Positions 12,884 to 42,279 of a DNA stretch of 64,000 nucleotides are shown here, piece by piece. The translations under genes and the position numbers were made by a program. This DNA is from Tubiluchus corallicola (lineage: Eukaryota; Priapulida; Priapulimorpha; Priapulimorphida; Tubiluchidae), in contig JAQGDQ010000241.1 in the NCBI GenBank assembly GCA_030141605.1, forward strand, positions 186,001 through 250,000, written 5' to 3'. Position 1 is the first letter of the stretch, and the number at the start of each line of letters is the position of its first letter. A model generated the notes under the pieces. That model was not told where the DNA came from and searched no databases. It was given only the letters and a program-made list of their open reading frames with translations.

Positions 12884-14401
12884 TGTCAGATCAAAATTAG
12901 CACCTGTACACAACTGGAGAGCTCAAAACGAAGGCAGTTTAACAAACAAAGGCTATTGTGAACATGTGGCTATTACAGTATTATAGATGCCAAGTGAGCC
13001 TTCGAGGAGGCTTATTTAGTGTCCTCGAAACTATGTTTTCACCTAAAAAGTCGATAACAAAGATACATAAGAATTGTTTTCAAGTCTATTAAACTTATAG
13101 TTTAAATGAGAACAAAAAACAGAAAGTGAACCATCAATTTCGGTCTGTCTTGTCAATAGATGCAACCTATGCTACTACTACTACTACTAATACGTACTGA
13201 TTACAGCGTTAAGAACGCCATCTACTAACCTTTTTACTAAAGTAACAGAAGCTTGTGTACCTTGAAATACAATCATCAATGCAGTACAAACCCTTGAGAC
13301 GTTGATTTGGGTTTGAAGATTTTCAATATTCTTATATTTTGTATTGTATGCGCGCAGTATTCAAATCATATTGATTCTAAAGCTGTTTTTACTCGGAAAG
13401 TAAAAAAGCCCAAAAATGCTGTTCCCAGTGTAAGAAAAATTAGCATTAATAATAACTCTATAAAATTTTCGCGTTCAGTTCGGTTTTCAAGCTATAACAA
13501 GTTAACAGTAAAATATTAAACTATTGCCTAAAAAGTGGCACTAGTATGGGTATAGAACACAAAATGATCTTTTGTACTCTAACGTTGTTTTCGTCCTTTA
13601 ATTTAATTAAAACAGCTGTAGTAAATATTAGCTTTGCAACGTTGCGGCCATGGCTTCTGAGTAGTCAAAGCTAGTTTTTTTGTAATTTGCTCTAGGTTTT
13701 GAAATTTATAACTGACCACTAATTGTTAATCTAGTACCATATCCTGTTATCTTCTGCTTGAACTTGTTTCTTATTATATCAGAAATATTGTAGTTCATAA
13801 CAGATTTATGTACTAAAACGGGTTTTCCGTTCGCAATAAGCTTATAGATTGGTAAGATTTTTGCCGCTTCTAGTGGGTCAGGTTGACTTCCCAGAATAAT
13901 CTTGCCGTAAGTCTCTGAAGGTGCAAGATATACTCTAAATCTTTTTTTTATTTCAAAAACAGTTTCCCAAAATGATATTACATTAGCTAATGTGCGGTTG
14001 TATTATTACATTATGAAGTTTCTTTGCAAGTGGTGCATCTATGTATGGGCACACTTTTTTCAAAATGGCAACCATTTGAGGTATTTTATCTCGCAATCAG
14101 TACAAATTGGTTATTTGTCCGCAAATACAATAACAAATGGTATCTTAATGTATCCAGACAATGTTATATTAAACATATACACATTGGCAAAATGTCACTG
14201 CATCCTATTCCTTAGGTTATATAATAATTAATGAATTGCAGATTTTCCTCTCACAGCATTTTCCATTGTTTCGTATATCTGTTCGAGTAAAAACTTAAAA
14301 TAAAAACTCAATGAAAATAAAATGATTTTGTTTGAACAGAATGCTTTAAATTTAATTTAATTTCGTGAGCGTTAGCAATCAACACTCCCGTAATTAACTA
14401 G

Positions 14402-14459
14402 TAATAATAATAATGATAATGATAATGATAACGATAACGATGATAACAACAGCAACAGC

Positions 14460-14508
<49 letters not shown>

Positions 14509-14544
14509 TTAATATTAATATAATATTAATATTAATATAATAAT
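14402..14544. repeat. Compound microsatellite (TAA/GAT, then CAA, then TTAATA)
   Basis: Runs of taa and gat/gataac grade into about 16 CAA units, then a palindromic attaatatta tract. The minus-strand Leu-rich open frame across it is a repeat artefact. Confidence 0.9.
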
Positions 14545-15026
14545 GACATACATTATAAAAACAAGAGCAAACCATTTACATGAAAGAAATGGAAACCACA
14601 CAGATAACCCCACAAACAACTTTCTATAAAGAATTAGTCATGGTAAATGCAAGGCACTATGATGTAGCTCCCTAAACCACACGCGTTCATTCCTCTCAAA
14701 ACGCGAATAAATCCCTGCTCTCCCCACGCGGTAGACCATCTGAAAAATAAAATTTCAATGTTATTGAAAAAATGTTAAAAAGTTTATCTAGAATCTTGCA
14801 AAACGTCAGGCGTCTTAAATCACCTAATGTATGTTATGTAATTATGTATAATGTTATGAATATATATTATCTTTTGATCTTATAATAACAAATATTGGTC
14901 AATGATGTACGTCTTCAGTTTGTCTTGCAAATAGAAGCAGTTATACAAAGCCGCTGCGTATTCATCATTTCCCAAAGACAAATAAAATTTTCCCCTTTGG
15001 AATGCCGAGCAACATTAGAAAAAACA

Positions 15027-18000
15027 TTATGAGATCAACGGATGTCTGTATAATAATTGTGCTTTTGCCTTAGTGCTTGGAAGTATATGTGAAAAGCTAC
15101 AACTGGATGAGACAGTAGAAACAGTTATCACATTCTCTGGTGCAAATAAACCGAAATTAACAGTGCTGAGGGTGTTACATGCTGCATTCTGTCGGTAAAG
15201 CACACAAGCATTATCGCAAGGTGACATAACGCGCACTATTGGCTTCTAAAACCAAAGACAGTTCGAAAAAGTTTCACACAAGTCAAACAAAAAAGCAGTA
15301 TCACACGCACGTATTTTTGATCAGCCAGAATGGAATTCCGTCTTCCTCTCCTGCTCCAACTACCACTACAGCGTGATTTACAGCACACCCAGGATCACAC
15401 TCCAGAAGAATTCCTAAAAATTAAGAAGTGTGAAAAACTCAGGAATGACAACGACTAGCTGCAGCCATTACCGGATTGAGGCTAGAGCTTTATGGGCTGC
15501 AGCACATGGCCCTCCGCCAGCTGAGGGACCTCCAGAGATTAAGTGAAACTAATTTTCTGTGAGAACTTAATTAGTAGGCCTACACTAGTAACAATATGTT
15601 TTATGATATACGTTAATATACCAATAACTTATTTATTGTAATTTGTATGTACTGTATTTAGAAGTGGTAGAAGTTGAAAAAACTAATTTGAAGAACCTAA
15701 CATTCATGCTTTTGGAGGCCGGGCCTCACAATAACTGTAACCCAGGGACCTACAAAATGAAGATGCAGCTGCAGTGCCACTTAAAGCAACACAAAAACTT
15801 GCCAAGAAAGTTTTCAGGCAATCACTTTAATTATATTGCAGTTATTAAGCCACATACAATGTTCTGTTTTACGCTATAAATTGAAGTCATCCAAAGTCCA
15901 AGTCCCGTTAGCACGCAACTAGTGTTTTGGTCACCCCGCCGTGGATGCAGTTACGGTTTATCAGATCCACATATTACACACATGTTGAACAATAGTGACA
16001 GTGTATAACTATATCAAAGCCTTAAAAACATGTAAGTGGGTTGCTTAGGAAGTGGGTATACTTGTGTACTGTCTCAGGTCGAAACAGTTGCGTATTAGTT
16101 GTTCAAATATTAATTGATCCTTTGATACTGTAAGTTGTCGGTAATTTTTTTCATTTTGTTTACTATTGTGTAGTTGTACTTACGATACATGTATCATGAT
16201 GTATGTGCGTAATTGTAATGGTGTTTTTCTCTAATAAACAAATAAAGCCCAGTGTGTGACGAAAAGAAGAAAAATATGAAAAAATTAGATAGAGTGACAA
16301 AGAGTTAAGAACAACGTTGTGATGGAAGATATCAGATTAAACTGCGCATTAAAGTAAGTAATCAGAGAATGGTGAGTTTGTTGGGTGTTATAGAAAATCA
16401 AGCACAAGAGTTTGAGAGCATTATAGTTCATAGAGCATAGTTGTTTATGTTTCACCTTAAGAAACTTCAGCTTTTGATAAATATAATCACATTACAATGT
16501 ATGTAGGCCTAATTTCGTTATCAAAATTTTTTAAAAGCATTTTGCTTTGAAAAATTTCTACCTCCGCCATAGAAATACCAGTCTTCGTTGTGCGCGCATA
16601 CACCAGTAAGGACAGGTCCATAAGATAGGAATACCATTATCGTATCCTCGCCATCGCCATTTCTACGAGAAAAAGAGGAGGTTGGTTACCACATTTCAAA
16701 GAAAACATGGCGGATTTATGGCGGATTTCTGCCTTGTCAAAACTCCCTCGATTTTTTTCAAAATCAGTTTGGTAGCACCCGGCCTGATGCAGAAGCGAGG
16801 CATTGATATAATTGTTTTTATTAAAATATTCACTCGCTAAGTATAATTACAGGCTAAAAAGTTGCTGTATATATCTGAAACAACAGTACGCTCAATGTTA
16901 TGGAAAATACTGAATTGAACAAATGCAAAAACTTAGTAATAGGTTAGCATCTTTATTTTATGCACATCATTCCAAAAAAATGCCAAAAGGTCCGCGTTGT
17001 ATGGGGCCTCATGAAAAGTTAAGTGAGTGGCCTGCTCATGTGCAAAATTGAGCAAGGTTAAGCATTTACTGCAAGGTTAAGCAACGCAAATTATGTCTAG
17101 ATAGTAAACAGATTCTAGGCAGCCAGGAGAATCTGCATGTAGGCTATGTGTCATACTGTCTACAGTCAGTCTACATCCATTGCGGACGTAGATGCGTCCG
17201 AAAACGTCTAAGAAACCCTTACTATTTCAGCGCCTCATCTCAGATACTTAACGCTGACAATGAAGTTCTGGGCCCCACTACAACCGTCTACGTTTGAGCG
17301 CTGGCTCTTGATTGTATAAAAATGAAAGAGCCATGTTTGCATGTTTTACCGGTTGTCGTAGAAGAATGGCTCATCACAGCCGAGTGGAAGTTCTTGATTG
17401 TCCTGGATTGCTACATCGCAGGTGGAAACCGCTCCCTAGAAGAAGCGGTAAAATAGAAGTTTTTACATCTATATTATAAAAACTTGTATTATAAAAAGGT
17501 GAACAGGTGAACCTAAGGTAATACTTTATGTATTAAAAACAGATTTGTACTCAGGCTTGTACATACATTGAAAATTACAAAGTTTGACTAGAATTCATAA
17601 TAAAGCATCAGAGAAAAATTACTTCAGCAATTATAGTCTGTAAGCTAGCAGATTTCTGACTAATGTAATTACTAAAGTACTATTTTTGCCTAAGTTATAC
17701 GCAGAACTTTTTGGTCTCATTAATATATCTTTGCACTAATTGAAATAACTGTAATACCATTTTTATCATGGCTTAGTTGTGGATTACCAGACAGGACGGT
17801 TGATATTTTATCCTATGCATTGAGACAGCTGTGGTGGTATTAGATATAAATAAATCATAGAGAATTTTTGATGGAGTTGGCATCTGCTAGCAGTATACAA
17901 AGGTGAATCGAGCAGACAATGGCGAATATCTTCAGTATGATATCCACAGAAACAATTTTTACTAACAATGTTGCTATAAATGTTCTTACAACTGTGGCTA

Positions 18001-19766
18001 TGTAGATAATCACTGGGTTTGCTAAAAACCAAGTGCATATCTGGCATGATGAATTGCTTTAGGAGTACCTGTATTTCCACAATGAAAAAATTTCGGTCTA
18101 TTAGGAATTCACTCAAATAGAAATTTTGTATGAGTTAACTAGTGCGCGAACTTCAAATCTGTAGACACCGCTGTATTGCTTTTATTATACCTGGCTTACT
18201 TTAAGTTTATGTTTTTACAGTTAAACGTTGCATCTTTCATGTGAACTGCCTATACTATCCGTTCGCATGATGTATCAGCTCGACAATGGCCTATAGCTTA
18301 TAGCTAAATTGTTAGTACTGTAATTAGTTTTCCATAAATGTGTCGCTAACATTAATTTCTATCTTAGAAGTTTTTGGTTTCGCAAAAAACGCAAGTATTA
18401 CAAATACAGTGTTTTTGTAAACCGGCTTACAACAAATTAAATATGCAGACGTTTGGGTTTAAAAAATTATTGCAAATACACTTATACAACAACTAGCCAA
18501 GCAGGGTGCTTTTATTTCCCGTGACAGGCCTAAGTAACGAGTTTTAGTAAAAGATAACAGCTTGTCATGCAGTCTCTTAATTGGTCGTACGCATCTCTTT
18601 GTCGCTTGCGTGACCTGTTGTCCGTCTGTTCATCCGCCTCGGATCCAGCGTTTAACCTTTCGTTTGTTTTAGACTTACGTCTTTTACTTTTAACTTTTTT
18701 GTTAATTGTGCAGGCGCTATCAAATTGGTCACTGTTCACATTGTGATCTGTTTGCAACCTTTTCTACATTTGTGTATATACTGTTCGTTTAAAACGTACA
18801 TGTGCCCTTTATTTTGCGTTTAGTATAAAAGCTATTTTGCATTTACTGCTGGAATGCGCCAATTAGTTTCCATTCTGTATTTGCCTTTGTAAGAGACATC
18901 TTATATCTTTTCCTGTCGAACGGTTTTATCAAATCTTGCAAAATTGCGTTAGTCAAAAATGACCGCACGCTTCTCATTATACTTTATTAATAACTATATT
19001 TCTTACACAAACGAATGACTGACGCTGCAATTACAACATTACGTACAGAAATGCAAAGATGATCAGAAGTGTCTTAGCATTTTTTAATTTAAACTAGCAA
19101 TGGGTATCGAACCTTGTATGGATACATCTCAGCACTAGCCATGTTTCTCAGGTAGTAATAAGCAAAAATCAGACCATGCCAGACTGATCCACCGGAACAA
19201 CCGAAACAATAAAAATATTCTGCTGGCGCACAGTCGACCACTTGCTGCACAGCTCGTGGACTGAGCTTTACTCCAGCTAAACATGAGTGCTGTTCTATCA
19301 TGTCAACCTAAAATTTGTTTAAACATTATTTTAAAAAAATTGATTGACGCTTGGTCAGCAAGTGCGCGTTCCGATAATTACGATATTGCAGTTAAAACTG
19401 TAATAAGTAAAACTGAGCGAATAGTGAACGTTCTTGATGGTGATGGTGGTAGTGATAATAAAAACAATGACGGCTATGACAACAAATATGTCTACGACGA
19501 CAACAATAGTGACAATAGCAATAAGGTAACAATGTTCCGTAATGATAACAATGAAAACGTCCAAACCAATAACAGCAGGAGTTGTCGCAAATACGAGAAC
19601 AGTAATAGCAGCGACACAACGATGACGACGTTAAATTGTTTCATTTGGGTTGCAGTCAAAGAATGTCTAAAAGCCATACAGACAAAAAGCAAAAAACTTA
19701 TACTAATGGCAATGTATATATATGTGTGCGTGTGTGTGTGTGTGTGTGCGTGCGTGCGTGTGTGTG

Positions 19767-19798
<32 letters not shown>

Positions 19799-19807
19799 TG
19801 TGTGTGT

Positions 19808-19853
<46 letters not shown>

Positions 19854-22800
19854 AGATGTATCTACACATTGTGCCACTGTAGTTTATTGTCTTTACTCTC
19901 AAATAATGTAGTTAGTAAGGCCTAGTTAGTAAATGGATGGGTGCATTTGAGCATCTCTCACCGTGCACTTGATTTTTTCTGTCATTGAGCAACCAGCGTA
20001 AAGGGCCAATATTTTAGATCTAAAATATTATTTAATAGGGCCTAAAGTTCTCATATATTAATAATGCAAAATTAGAAGGGAGTTGGAAAACAAAATTTGA
20101 GTAATAGGCAGCGATGGTTATTAAAGCAAATTACGTGTGGAATTCAGTGACCTTGATGAAATGTTCAAAGTCAATGATTTTAACACCTACTAAACGGCAA
20201 ATCAGCAAGTTGCCGAAAATGACATGATAGAAAAAATGGAATACTACTTCAGTGAATCCAATACTTTGCGTTTGCACTCAAACATTTTTCAACCTTTTCC
20301 TTAACGCCTTGCAGATTATGCAAACATGGACACATATATTTAATATATCACTTACGAGAGTCATTGCATAGCAACATCCACAGCTTCCCTGAAATTAAAA
20401 ATTTTAGTCCTTAGCGTAAATCAAATTAAACCAATAATTTAACTACCTAAAACGTGGCTTATTAGTTTCTTAAGATTAGTGGATATTTTCAATGGTTCCC
20501 AAACGTCAAAAAATGGAACAATTTGAGCGAACTTCTCATAGTTTTACTCTAGACATTCGTAGGGCAGAACAATCACATATCAACCAATTTTTTGCTAGGT
20601 TTGTTAATTTTGAGAAAATATTTCCCGAAATATTGAATATTACAGTAACTTCAATTGAATCTTTATATATTATTACAGTAAATTCATAATAATTACTGTA
20701 TATTCACCCCTGCTAATACATATCATGTAATTTTGTAGAAAGTAGAATATAATTACTGTTACCCTCACTGTGGACCATGAAATAGAGTTCACTTCGTTGA
20801 AATTTACAATCTACCTTAAGTCCATTTCATACCAAGGACGCACAGCCAGCTGCATCGAAGAGAAATTCCTTGCGGCATTCCTCACGAAAATGGAACACAT
20901 TGTCTTTTACGGCGCACGTCACAGTGAGGACGCGAGGCGAAATTCTTCGTGAGGATTTCTGTTGCCAGCTAAAAGCTATGCGTCCTCCTGGCGAGGAAAA
21001 TTGCCGCATGGTAGGAATACTGCAGATTTCATTTTCGTGAGGAATCCTCGCGGAATTCAGATTAAAATTTAACTGCTCAATTACTTCTGTCTTGTTTAGC
21101 GAACAACACTTAACATATTTCATCATAAAATTTTAAGATTTAATCTCGATTTTAACAGACAGACGATTTTATGTTTTATTCGTCGAACAGCCACGGCTAC
21201 ATTAGTGAAAAGGAAAAATTACGGTGCTGTCTTGCTTGGTCAATTGGGTCCGTCCAATAACGACTTTAATTAATACTATCGTAATAATGGTAAGCACTTT
21301 GTCGTCTTCGTGTCCATGTTGACGAGTAATGGCTACAAGCCTGCAACTGGCAAAGTATCTGCAGCTAACTGAACGCGTGGAAAAAAAACAGAATAGTTTC
21401 ACTGTAAAATGAACTTTCTTGCTGCATAGGATTTCGTAAAAATCGGAAATTTTCTGATTTTCGAATCGAACAGCAATTCCATGCGTCATTTTTCCTTGCG
21501 TCCTCACTGTGAAATGGGTCTTAGGTGCAACACGCACACACACCTGTATTGTACACCCCTCTGGGGAGCAAATTTATACCTGATTTTTCACTGGTGTAAT
21601 GCAATTCAAATCCCATGGTACGTTGTACAGTACCGCTTCTCGTTTTTGTATGTCACCTTCCAGTGTCTTCTTTACGTTTCCAAACCCTTTGGGCAACCTT
21701 GGGAATTCTGTACCCTGCACTTCTAGGCCCAGTTTTGTTTCTTTCAGCTCGCTCATATCCTGACAAATAATCTTAAATTAAGTTCAGTTATCCAAAAGCG
21801 AAAAAAAGTATTGCAACGAGTTTCAAAACAACTGGCTTAACTTCATTAAGCAAACTGCTTATAAGCCACTAGAGTGAACCAGACTTCTAGATTCTACAAA
21901 TAATTATAAGATTAAACCCAAAAAAGAAAAACGTGTTGTAGCAAGTAATGAAGTAGATGGAGAAAGTAAAATGTTGATGAACTTACTCATGTAAGAAATG
22001 TCTTACCAAAAAATCATAAGTTTAAATCTAAAAAAGAAAAATGTGTAATGTACAAGGTGGAGAACTATTCAGGTGCCTGCCAACATTGAGTTTCTAGAAA
22101 ACCTTGAAGATAGTTGGTTTTACCTTTGAAATATGTGTTAGAATGATTTAACTGAATAACCCAAATTGTCAGGGTGCAGTTATTGTGTATTAGTGGTTAT
22201 CAATAGAACTGATACAGTAATTGATTGGTGTTTCTATTTGCTTGTGTTATTTTAAATGTTTTGGTTTTGTAATATGTAACTGCATTACGCAAAATGTTAA
22301 ATATGAAATATTGCAACGAGTTTTGAAATACTGTAGTTGGATTAAACAGTTGAAAAAAGTACTGTGTCTCTGTGAATTAAACTCCATTTAACGTAATGAG
22401 ATGTCATATGTGGTGAATACTCAGGTTTGTTGTTTACATTACACTTGTTTAATTTTTTCTTAATCTAACACCATTTTATGCAGTAACTAAGGTCCCAAAT
22501 TTTCCGCGATCGCGGAAAACGGATAGAATTCACGGAAATGAGCAACAGAAACGGAAATAGCTACGAAAACCGGAATTGGCCTGGTTTCCGACTTTCTGTA
22601 AATTGTTTTTAATTTAATTTAATTTAATTTATTTCATATAGACAATAAATAAAAACAAGTGCTTACCTAAAAAATCATGAAATCGAGGTGGAGATTACCT
22701 GCTTATAAGCGCCCTAGAGAATTTATTGCGTACCAGAGACTGAATTTACTTCACTTGATGCTTTACGACAAGTTCTTTAGCCTTTCACACTGTAACTAAC

Positions 22801-24215
22801 TGCATTAGCAAAACATAATTATAGGAGTTACGAAAAACTGAATGTAGTTTCATACCTCGTCAGCCATGAAATTCACAGCCAGAAAATACGTCCTTTTTCC
22901 AATTTTAAAATCGGTATTCTTCTTCTTAATGAATGCTGTTCTCTCTGCGAAGATTTTTCTCCTTCGTGTTTCTTCTTCGGTGTTTCTAAATTTTCTTCCT
23001 GCAAGTTACAAGCATTAAGGAATTTAATATAGCAAAAGAAAATATATACGAAATAAGCTGCAAAAAACTTTTCAACTACATAAGCTTTAGGTATAGGCAG
23101 TTGTTATTATTTATAATCTAATATAATGAGATTATTATTTACGGTAGTACAAGCCCTTACAGCTAGCTGAAATTTGAAACCAAACTTGAAAACAGGAAAT
23201 GTAAAAACATTGGAAGACGGACGCCATAAGCACTAAGCAGCGGTGAATGTTCGCTGCAAAACGGTAGTCTAGCGATTACGATGTTCGCCTCCATGTTCGA
23301 ATCCAGGTTGTTCGCATTTCCTAATTTAAAGTTAAATTTCAAAATTTAATTGTGTAGGTCATTTGTTTAAGTAACTAACCCACCCTTTTTCTTTGCGAAA
23401 TCGTCATACGCTTCAAAATCGCTTTGGGGTCTATTCTTTTTAAGTTTTTTGATGAATCCCGCGGGATCTTTGACTCGTTCTCGTCGACTTTTGCCCAAAT
23501 TGAGCAGCATCGTCTTCGATACAGTTTCAGTCGGCTCATCTTCGGATTCATACTCCGTAATGTTGAATTCAGACCCTAGGGGCAGAGAAGCGGCCTTCGG
23601 CGGAGCTCCTGTTTCTACTGATGGTGGGAAGGTAAATTCAGTCTTCTTCTGTCGTCGTGGCCGTTCTTTGGATGTGGTCGCTGGTTCTGGTATTGTTGGC
23701 AATGTCGCTTTAGGCGTGTTTTGAGAGTAAGGAAGAGATCGTGTAACTTGTGGAACAAATGTAACTGTTGGTGTCTCAGATTTAGAAGTAGTTGTAGGTC
23801 CTAGAATATCTGTCATGGACGAGACAGTGGTCATCTCGGTTGCCGAGTCAGTTTTTTCTATAGCAGCTAGTGCTTCTTCGTTCGCTGACATCAGAACAGC
23901 GCCCGCTAGATCAACCGCGTCAGAATTAGTATCTGACATATCAGTCACAAGGTCAGTCATGTATTCATCGTCACCACATTTTTCGTCTTCTTTTGTAGCT
24001 GCTATAGTGATCAGTCGGAACAATGAAAATAAAAACAAGCTTAATAACACCGTATAGTACCAAATCCTCATTTCTGAAATACTAAGACTTAATTTGTTGA
24101 TATCCTCAGTAAAAGCAATAATAGAGAAGCAGAGAAGTAATATTAATACGTAGCTGTTTCTTATTAAAATCAGGGGCAACAGCTTGCAACACCGCAGAAT
24201 ACTCTGTGAAGGCAT
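15027..24215 (-). CDS. Divergent cathepsin L-like (papain family C1A) cysteine protease with a long N-terminal extension
   Basis: Nine exons, all in compatible phase: 24215 (or 24071)-23384, 22998-22856, 21759-21580, 20388-20356, 19307-19113, 17435-17350, 16662-16562, 15413-15307, 15245-15027. Numbering here starts at the second candidate Met (24071), giving about 583 residues; it opens with a hydrophobic signal-like segment ([15 protein letters not shown]). The upstream ATG at 24215 would add 48 residues with another hydrophobic stretch. Residues 26 to about 220 are Ser/Thr/Glu-rich. An I29-type prodomain follows ([20 protein letters not shown], about 222-277). Mature-domain landmarks are ITPVKNQ (Gln of the oxyanion hole), GSCGCCYAM with the nucleophile at Cys343, [24 protein letters not shown] with His489, and FWLIKNTC with Asn509. 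The family motif CGSCWAF is altered (Ser to Cys, Trp to Tyr, Phe to Met), GYG is GAG, and the NSWG Trp is missing. Likely secreted or endolysosomal; whether it is active is uncertain. The last junction (61-bp intron) is the weakest part of the model. Confidence 0.82.
17808..18116 (-). mobile_element. Reverse-transcriptase C-terminal remnant in a cathepsin intron
   Basis: A minus-strand open frame contains [18 protein letters not shown] followed by an R..LH segment. It resembles the C.CG..E...H.LL.CP.Y...R..L zinc-knuckle-like region at the C-terminal end of many non-LTR retrotransposon polymerases. The second Cys of the usual CP is Ser-Pro here, and no RT catalytic core is visible nearby, so it is a fragment. 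It lies in the intron between the 19113 and 17435 exons. Confidence 0.45.
19721..19852. repeat. (TG)n microsatellite with CG interruptions
   Basis: A tgtg run of about 130 bp with scattered tgcg units, in an intron of the cathepsin gene. The Cys/Val and His/Thr open frames across it are artefacts. Confidence 0.95.
20356..20388 (-). CDS. 33-bp microexon carrying the cathepsin catalytic cysteine
   Basis: Acceptor ttttaatttcag and donor GTAAGTGA flank exactly 11 codons: [11 protein letters not shown]. It joins in phase 0 to the preceding exon ending TPVKNQ and to the following exon beginning VDMIEQ, which reconstructs the papain-family sequence around Gln19 and Cys25. It is too short for ORF-based gene finding but is essential to the enzyme. 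Confidence 0.85.
20763..21505. repeat. Cluster of inverted and direct CCTCACTGTG / TCGTGAGGA motifs
   Basis: cctcactgtg occurs near 20764 and 21500, and its reverse complement cacagtgagg near 20922. The related pieces cgtgaggatttc and cgtgaggaatcc lie between. The segment is GC-richer than the flanking intron and probably contains one or more decayed small transposons. Ends and target duplications are not resolved. Confidence 0.4.
22500..22519. repeat. 20-bp perfect palindrome
   Basis: ttttccgcgatcgcggaaaa is its own reverse complement. It is followed by several cggaaa repeats up to about 22600, all in an intron of the cathepsin gene. It is most likely part of a decayed repeat; a regulatory role cannot be shown. 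Confidence 0.7.
23170..23320 (+). repeat. tRNA-derived SINE-like copy
   Basis: It begins with the block shared with 8129-8160 (ccaaacttgaaaacagga), then carries ggtagtctagcgatta and gttcgaatcc, which look like a tRNA A-box region and a near-perfect B box about 30 bp apart. It lies in the first intron of the cathepsin gene. Confidence 0.6.
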
Positions 24216-35255: not shown

Positions 35256-41906
<6,651 letters not shown>

Positions 41907-42279
41907 GTCGCCAGATATGCCACGAATGTGGCTTGTGATTGGCTGATTAACTTTCCAGGTCGTCAAGGAGGCTAAGTAGCCTATGAAGCTATTTTTTAAA
42001 ACAATTTGATACCTTTAAAAATTATATTATAGTGCTATATAATTTCAAATATTACTAATTGTAATCGCTTTTATTGGACGTTTTTACTTTTGTTTTGTTA
42101 TAGGTAGTATGCGTTTGACGGAAAACTTTACGTTTTATAATTTAGAATCGGTCGGTTGTGTCAGGCGAACACAGTACCTGATGTACAGCATGATCGTTTA
42201 CCTGCAGTCGTGTTTTTACATGGAGAGTTTCAAAAATGTGTAATTTTTTTTGTATATCCGTAGCGTGAAATTGATCACT
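41907..42279. promoter_or_regulatory. Shared bidirectional promoter region
   Basis: 373 bp separate the start codons of the minus-strand SLC35E3 and the plus-strand ankyrin/discoidin/SAM gene, leaving room for both 5' UTRs and one common promoter. CCAAT-type pentamers (attgg on the plus strand) occur at 41938-41942 and 42073-42077. No clear TATA box. Confidence 0.55.

Follow-up and report, generated by a model that had tools for sequence, protein, structure and literature searches.

The 64-kb stretch of Tubiluchus corallicola DNA analysed here (the window; C831:186001-250000 in an assembly of 343.5 Mb and 2344 contigs) carries on its minus strand a gene of nine exons, which extends from 24071 to 14634 in window positions and encodes a product of 544 residues. 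The sequence argues that the product is, very probably, an intact and selected cysteine protease zymogen of the C1A type, most likely secreted and catalytically active. The initial annotation had described the gene as a cathepsin L-like protease with a rewritten catalytic centre. The unusual CGCCYAM around the nucleophile and the VGAG stretch are indeed present in the DNA, whereas the loss of the NSWG motif described alongside them results from an exon error.

The spliced protein matches the Pfam family Peptidase_C1 (PF00112) over residues 330-538 with an E-value of 2.3e-40 (139.5 bits against a curated cut-off of 20.7), the profile search proposed earlier thus confirming the family, and the I29 propeptide over residues 222-278 with an E-value of 4.8e-8 (33.6 bits, cut-off 24.4). 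Four of eight single open frames searched in Pfam exceed the curated cut-off by themselves, three for C1 and one for I29. Among solved chains, the whole protein best matches a midgut cathepsin L-like proteinase (3qt4, 3.1e-33), followed by procathepsin S (1.3e-32); for the mature part alone the best matches are cathepsin H (1e-31) together with actinidin and cathepsin S. ERFNIN and GNFD are motifs of the cathepsin L-like subgroup; by eye, the propeptide has the E, R, F and I of ERFNIN as well as its final N, with Arg for the inner N, and AVNFMAD stands at GxNxFxD. The window gene does not group with the cathepsin L genes of its own genome in a tree in which 10 of 20 inner branches, deep ones among them, are open. 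Judged by its sequence, the protein is a member of C1A and would work in the manner of a cathepsin.

The predicted order is that of a zymogen, in which a signal-like N-terminus and a long stretch of low complexity come first, followed by the I29 propeptide and the mature enzyme. The N-terminus encoded by exon 1 is hydrophobic and resembles, by eye, a signal peptide or an anchor, and the extension that follows is rich in Thr, Glu, Ser and Pro over about 194 residues. An ATG at 24215, in frame with the chosen start at 24071, is a candidate alternative start upstream in exon 1. The mature enzyme retains Gln19, Cys25, His159, Asn175 and Trp177 (papain numbering), and the first four are found in the expected order both in the spliced protein and in the alignment, as annotated initially. 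Such a protein would most likely function as an ordinary cysteine protease inhibited by its propeptide.

Gene structure and the Trp after the catalytic Asn

The exon ends were picked by eye from open frames and afterwards checked by splicing. Each of the eight introns is GT-AG, the exons join in phase and no internal stop occurs across the nine exons, a structure that comparison with homologous genes establishes. The donor of exon 8, AC|GTGCGT, falls within the Thr codon of an N-T-W motif; exon 9 begins A TGG TCT ACC GCG TGG GGA, and the join AAT AC|A TGG gives N-T-W-S-T-A-W-G-E-Q-G. The open frame of exon 9 matches positions 189-219 of the Pfam C1 profile (E-value in Table 1).

The NTC reported in place of NSWG was therefore a splice error, the reading having run beyond the donor AAT AC|GTGCGT: the ACG TGC GTG TGA that follows AAT is intron 8 sequence, and Trp is supplied by exon 9. 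The 3' end of the gene accordingly lies at 14634 and not at 15027, exon 9 being outside the span annotated first. The open frame 15245-15027, probably taken as the last exon at that time, matched no Pfam profile at E-values up to 10.

The junction of exons 8 and 9 is supported by three lines of evidence. The identical split is carried by the NSWSASWGE of a sister gene on contig C2233 (described below); the same phase-2 intron after Asn occurs in 10 of the 23 other C1A loci modelled in this genome, the sister gene included (L010, L011, L012, L013, L017, L021, L022, L023, L024 and L025), while the remaining 13 have the motif without that intron (for example L006) or lack that part in the model; and a partial copy on contig C2317 retains the acceptor and the exon, with differences at 2 of 106 bases and one Ala to Thr change. 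The Trp following the catalytic Asn is thus present, as NTW in the window gene after splicing of exon 9 and as NSW in the sister gene. An intron placed within the NSWG motif can lead the reader of a genome to a false pseudoprotease call.

A sister gene and the evidence for selection

The sister gene on C2233 (L022 and L029) encodes a mature domain 53% identical to that of the window gene, with the motifs CGCCFAF, HAVLVVGVG and KNSWSASWGE, and its protein matches Pfam C1 at 6.4e-50 and I29 at 1.1e-7. This and the other paralogue models are spliced alignments made with our own aligner and not transcripts, the weaker ones (score about 200 or below) being rough. Exons 3, 4 and 7 match those of the window gene in length (180, 33 and 101 bases), the intron phases are identical and the 33-base exon reads QACGCCFAFAV. 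In the first exon (L029), a signal-like N-terminus is followed by 187 Lys/Glu-rich residues that lead into the I29 domain, and the donor, G|GTAAGT, lies in the same phase. The two genes form a clade with support of 97/94. They are alike in CGCC followed by a non-Trp aromatic residue, in intron phases, in an additional loop Cys, in the W-S after the Asn motif, and in the signal-like N-terminus with its long extension; they differ in Phe for Tyr, in NSW for NTW and in the Lys/Glu-rich as against Thr/Glu/Ser/Pro-rich extension. By sequence, the architecture is common to both paralogues and the composition of the extension is not. Near C2233:12889 the Lys/Glu-rich extension contains two tandem copies of a segment some 33 residues long (VDVDKKEKPKKEKPEKKKKGSKAPKDAEDSAIE).

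Among 314 aligned codons of the two genes, 154 residues are identical. The NG86 synonymous divergence (dS) of 2.749 is saturated, and hence the proportions of synonymous (pS) and nonsynonymous (pN) differences were compared with shuffled pairing in place of a dN/dS value. The values are 0.731 for pS, against 0.729 under random pairing, and 0.332 for pN, against 0.734. With pS at the random level and pN far below it, synonymous change has reached saturation and selection has preserved the protein; purifying selection acts between the two genes. The paired cysteines and the non-Trp aromatic residue are an old, retained trait of the two-gene clade.

The codon comparison argues strongly against a pseudogene. 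A decaying pseudogene or a mis-assembled mosaic is extremely improbable, given nine exons without stop or frame break and a protein retained against saturated synonymous change. The observation that speaks for it is a 93% identical copy of 12895-15275 at the end of C2317, which includes exon 9, lacks exon 8 and ceases to match inside intron 8; yet this piece reaches the contig end and resembles an allele left uncollapsed in the assembly, or else a partial duplicate, with exon 9 nearly unchanged.

Table 1. Exons of the C1A gene in window positions, with the residues and domains they encode
Feature	Position	Strand	Content
Exon 1	23384..24071	-	N-terminus, extension and beginning of I29
Exon 2	22856..22998	-	I29 propeptide; open frame alone Pfam PF08246 1.1e-7
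Exon 3	21580..21759	-	End of propeptide and start of mature enzyme; final codon Gln19 (21582-21580)
Exon 4	20356..20388	-	33 bases; CGCCYAM; Cys22, extra Cys24 (20376-20374), nucleophile Cys25 (20373-20371), Tyr26 (20370-20368)
Exon 5	19113..19307	-	Post-nucleophile helix, VVDC, extra loop Cys (FYCFGC), GCSGG; open frame Pfam PF00112 3.2e-4
Exon 6	17350..17435	-	Part of mature enzyme; basis: spliced model and comparison with C2233
Exon 7	16562..16662	-	64% identity to the C2233 exon across the matched part
Exon 8	15311..15413	-	His (15375-15373), VGAG, Asn (15315-15313); open frame Pfam PF00112 4.8e-5
Exon 9	14634..14739	-	(T)WSTAWGEQGFIRVLRGMNACGLGSYIIVPCIYHD stop; Trp177 (14738-14736); open frame Pfam PF00112 3.9e-5

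The C2317 segment (L034) corresponds to the 3' end of the gene. A second full copy was rejected: a DNA search of the genome with the stretch from exon 7 through exon 8 (15311-16700, minus strand; 40 of 210 candidates scored) gave 75 matches, of which the single full-length one is the window itself. The other 74 are short (71-92% identity), and the longer ones among them fall in the intervening intron and are probably interspersed repeats. Elsewhere in the window, an open frame on the minus strand (41463-42014), which resembles an SLC35E-type transporter, matches Pfam TPT at 16.7 bits, below the cut-off of 30.

Residues around the nucleophile in this genome and elsewhere

Loci L001-L028 were scanned for the nucleophile motif and the 23 loci L006-L028 were modelled. 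The alignment comprised 25 rows, namely the window gene, 14 of the 23 modelled loci, five single-frame genes and five PDB chains; L008, L014, L016, L019, L023, L024, L026, L027 and L028 were excluded because they were incomplete, nearly identical to another locus or of poor quality, and the tree was inferred from 23 rows after dropping C792 and C1796. A credible nucleophile motif was found in 22 of the 28 loci. CGCC occurs, apart from the window gene, in only one of these, the CGCCFAF of the sister gene. A non-Trp aromatic residue follows the nucleophile in the window gene and in the sister gene, and Tyr is also found there in C1008, in C1173 and in two nearly identical copies on C80 and C367; the clade joining the window pair with C1173/C367 has support of only 80/66. 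Ser replaces the nucleophile in two of the 22 loci, both CNASWAF (L018 on C1796, near 9363, and L021 on C889, near 3720), which makes these genes candidate pseudoproteases; L018 presumably resembles TINAG. The remaining loci show CGSCWAF or the near forms CGACWAF, CGSCWSF, CNSCWAF and CANCWAF. Five C1A genes (L001-L005; contigs C529, C1395 and C1209), of cathepsin L-, F- and O-like types, have the entire C1 domain in one open frame, three of them in tandem on C529, unlike the divergent C1A genes, which are split over many exons.

In place of CGSCWAF, which is usual in the family but does not define it, the window gene has CGCCYAM. After correction of exon 9, the departures left in the sequence are Cys24, Tyr26, Met28 and VGAG. 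Tyr for Trp26 is real and is shared with the other genes listed above. VGAG for VGYG is likewise real, but the stretch varies among the C1A genes of this genome (VGVG, TGAG, VGFG, IGDG). Position 24 varies in solved chains too, being Ala in cathepsin S (CGACWAF) and Gly in actinidin (CGGCWAF), while cathepsin H has CGSCWTF; all three are active enzymes. Cathepsin C has Tyr after the nucleophile, and a literature text search for it in that enzyme (CGSCYSF) found nothing.

The change of Ser24 to Cys is genuine, but it is a variant already known ahead of C1A nucleophiles in plants and bacteria. One paper on plant C1A proteases links the additional C of a CGCCWAFS motif with the SAG12 subfamily (PMC4243279), and QGQCGCCWAFS is printed for a plant C1A protease (PMC11434725). 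A pattern scan of genome contigs gave 58 matches, two of which are relatives, both from Bacteroidetes, with CGCCWTF and CGCCWAF and an intact NSWG; the pattern contained CGC, and the scan shows existence and not frequency. A similar scan of viral sequences gave 61 matches and no relatives. Literature text searches did not find CGCCFAF or CGSCYA, and the matches to CGCCYA look unrelated.

The initial annotation had offered, as one option, a pseudoprotease that keeps the fold and binds instead of cutting, the other being an active enzyme with possibly altered specificity or redox control. The odd residues near the nucleophile (Cys24, Tyr26, Met28) and the occurrence of Cys to Ser C1A genes in the same genome would fit this option, yet it is weak, since all the catalytic residues are present in both sister genes, Gln, Cys, His and Asn together with the following Trp, and the propeptide domain is also retained; we regard it as quite unlikely. 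Some points do weigh against an intact, active enzyme. The gene and the enzyme are known here from sequence alone, and conservation is seen against a single paralogue, that on C2233. Tyr for Trp26 together with Met for Phe28 differ from all solved chains in 18 alignments (overlapping; of 132 to 175 matches per search). Against the junction with exon 9, the open frame 15245-15027 is also uninterrupted in the C2317 copy, and a transcript may end alternatively through it. On balance an active protease is favoured. The residues adjoining the C1A nucleophile often serve as a signature of the family, yet they can drift to CGCC[Y/F] with the catalytic residues under selection.

Extra cysteines and comparison with known enzymes

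The mature enzyme has 15 cysteines in the window gene and 14 in the sister gene, with 13 cysteine columns in common. Seven of these are canonical by alignment (Cys22, 25, 56, 65, 98, about 155 and about 208). The six extra ones are Cys24, the first Cys of FYCxGC, LGC/MDC, GVC, one of the two in C[D/E]PGC, and PC-IYH; together with CGCC[Y/F]A[M/F] they mark the two-gene clade. Their even number suits added disulfides, and they perhaps form additional bonds that would stiffen a secreted enzyme, Cys24 being tolerated beside the nucleophile as in the plant CGCC enzymes.

Two more specific readings concern Cys24. As the sequence places Cys24 and the FYC cysteine on the flanks of the Cys22-Cys65 bond, Cys24 could pair with the extra Cys that precedes Cys65 by three positions (FYC-x-G-C in both paralogues). 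Two parallel disulfides would then lie on the S1 subsite wall beside the nucleophile, in a double-clamped, possibly redox-gated active site. We consider this unlikely though conceivable: the two bacterial CGCC homologues are without the loop cysteine, which counts against a general coupling and indicates that Cys24 needs no such partner. Literature text searches found no description of a double-clamped C1A active site.

The other reading is a redox switch in which a reversible Cys24-Cys25 vicinal disulfide turns the enzyme off. Both residues are retained in the two paralogues despite saturated synonymous divergence, which speaks for this reading. However, vicinal disulfides are strained and the extra loop Cys offers another possible partner for Cys24. 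CGCC moreover occurs in plant and bacterial relatives, and the plant passages on the motif (PMC4243279, PMC11434725) mention no switch. A text search for a vicinal cysteine with papain led to a phrase that concerned ADAM17 and thioredoxin. The switch is very unlikely, and the favoured reading is an otherwise ordinary protease, perhaps with extra disulfides.

Among known systems, the plant CGCCWAFS proteases (SAG12-type, CaZingipain2; PMC4243279, PMC11434725) share with the window gene the second Cys directly ahead of the nucleophile; they retain the Trp after it, unlike the window gene, and there is no evidence of close kinship. The animal C1A cathepsins of the L/S/K/H type (PDB 3qt4, 2c0y, 1nb3) are alike in the order of I29 and C1, in the catalytic residues, in GCxGG and in the cysteines of the canonical disulfides, whereas the window gene differs from them in the low-complexity extension of about 190 residues ahead of I29, in CGCCYAM and VGAG, and in the extra cysteines.

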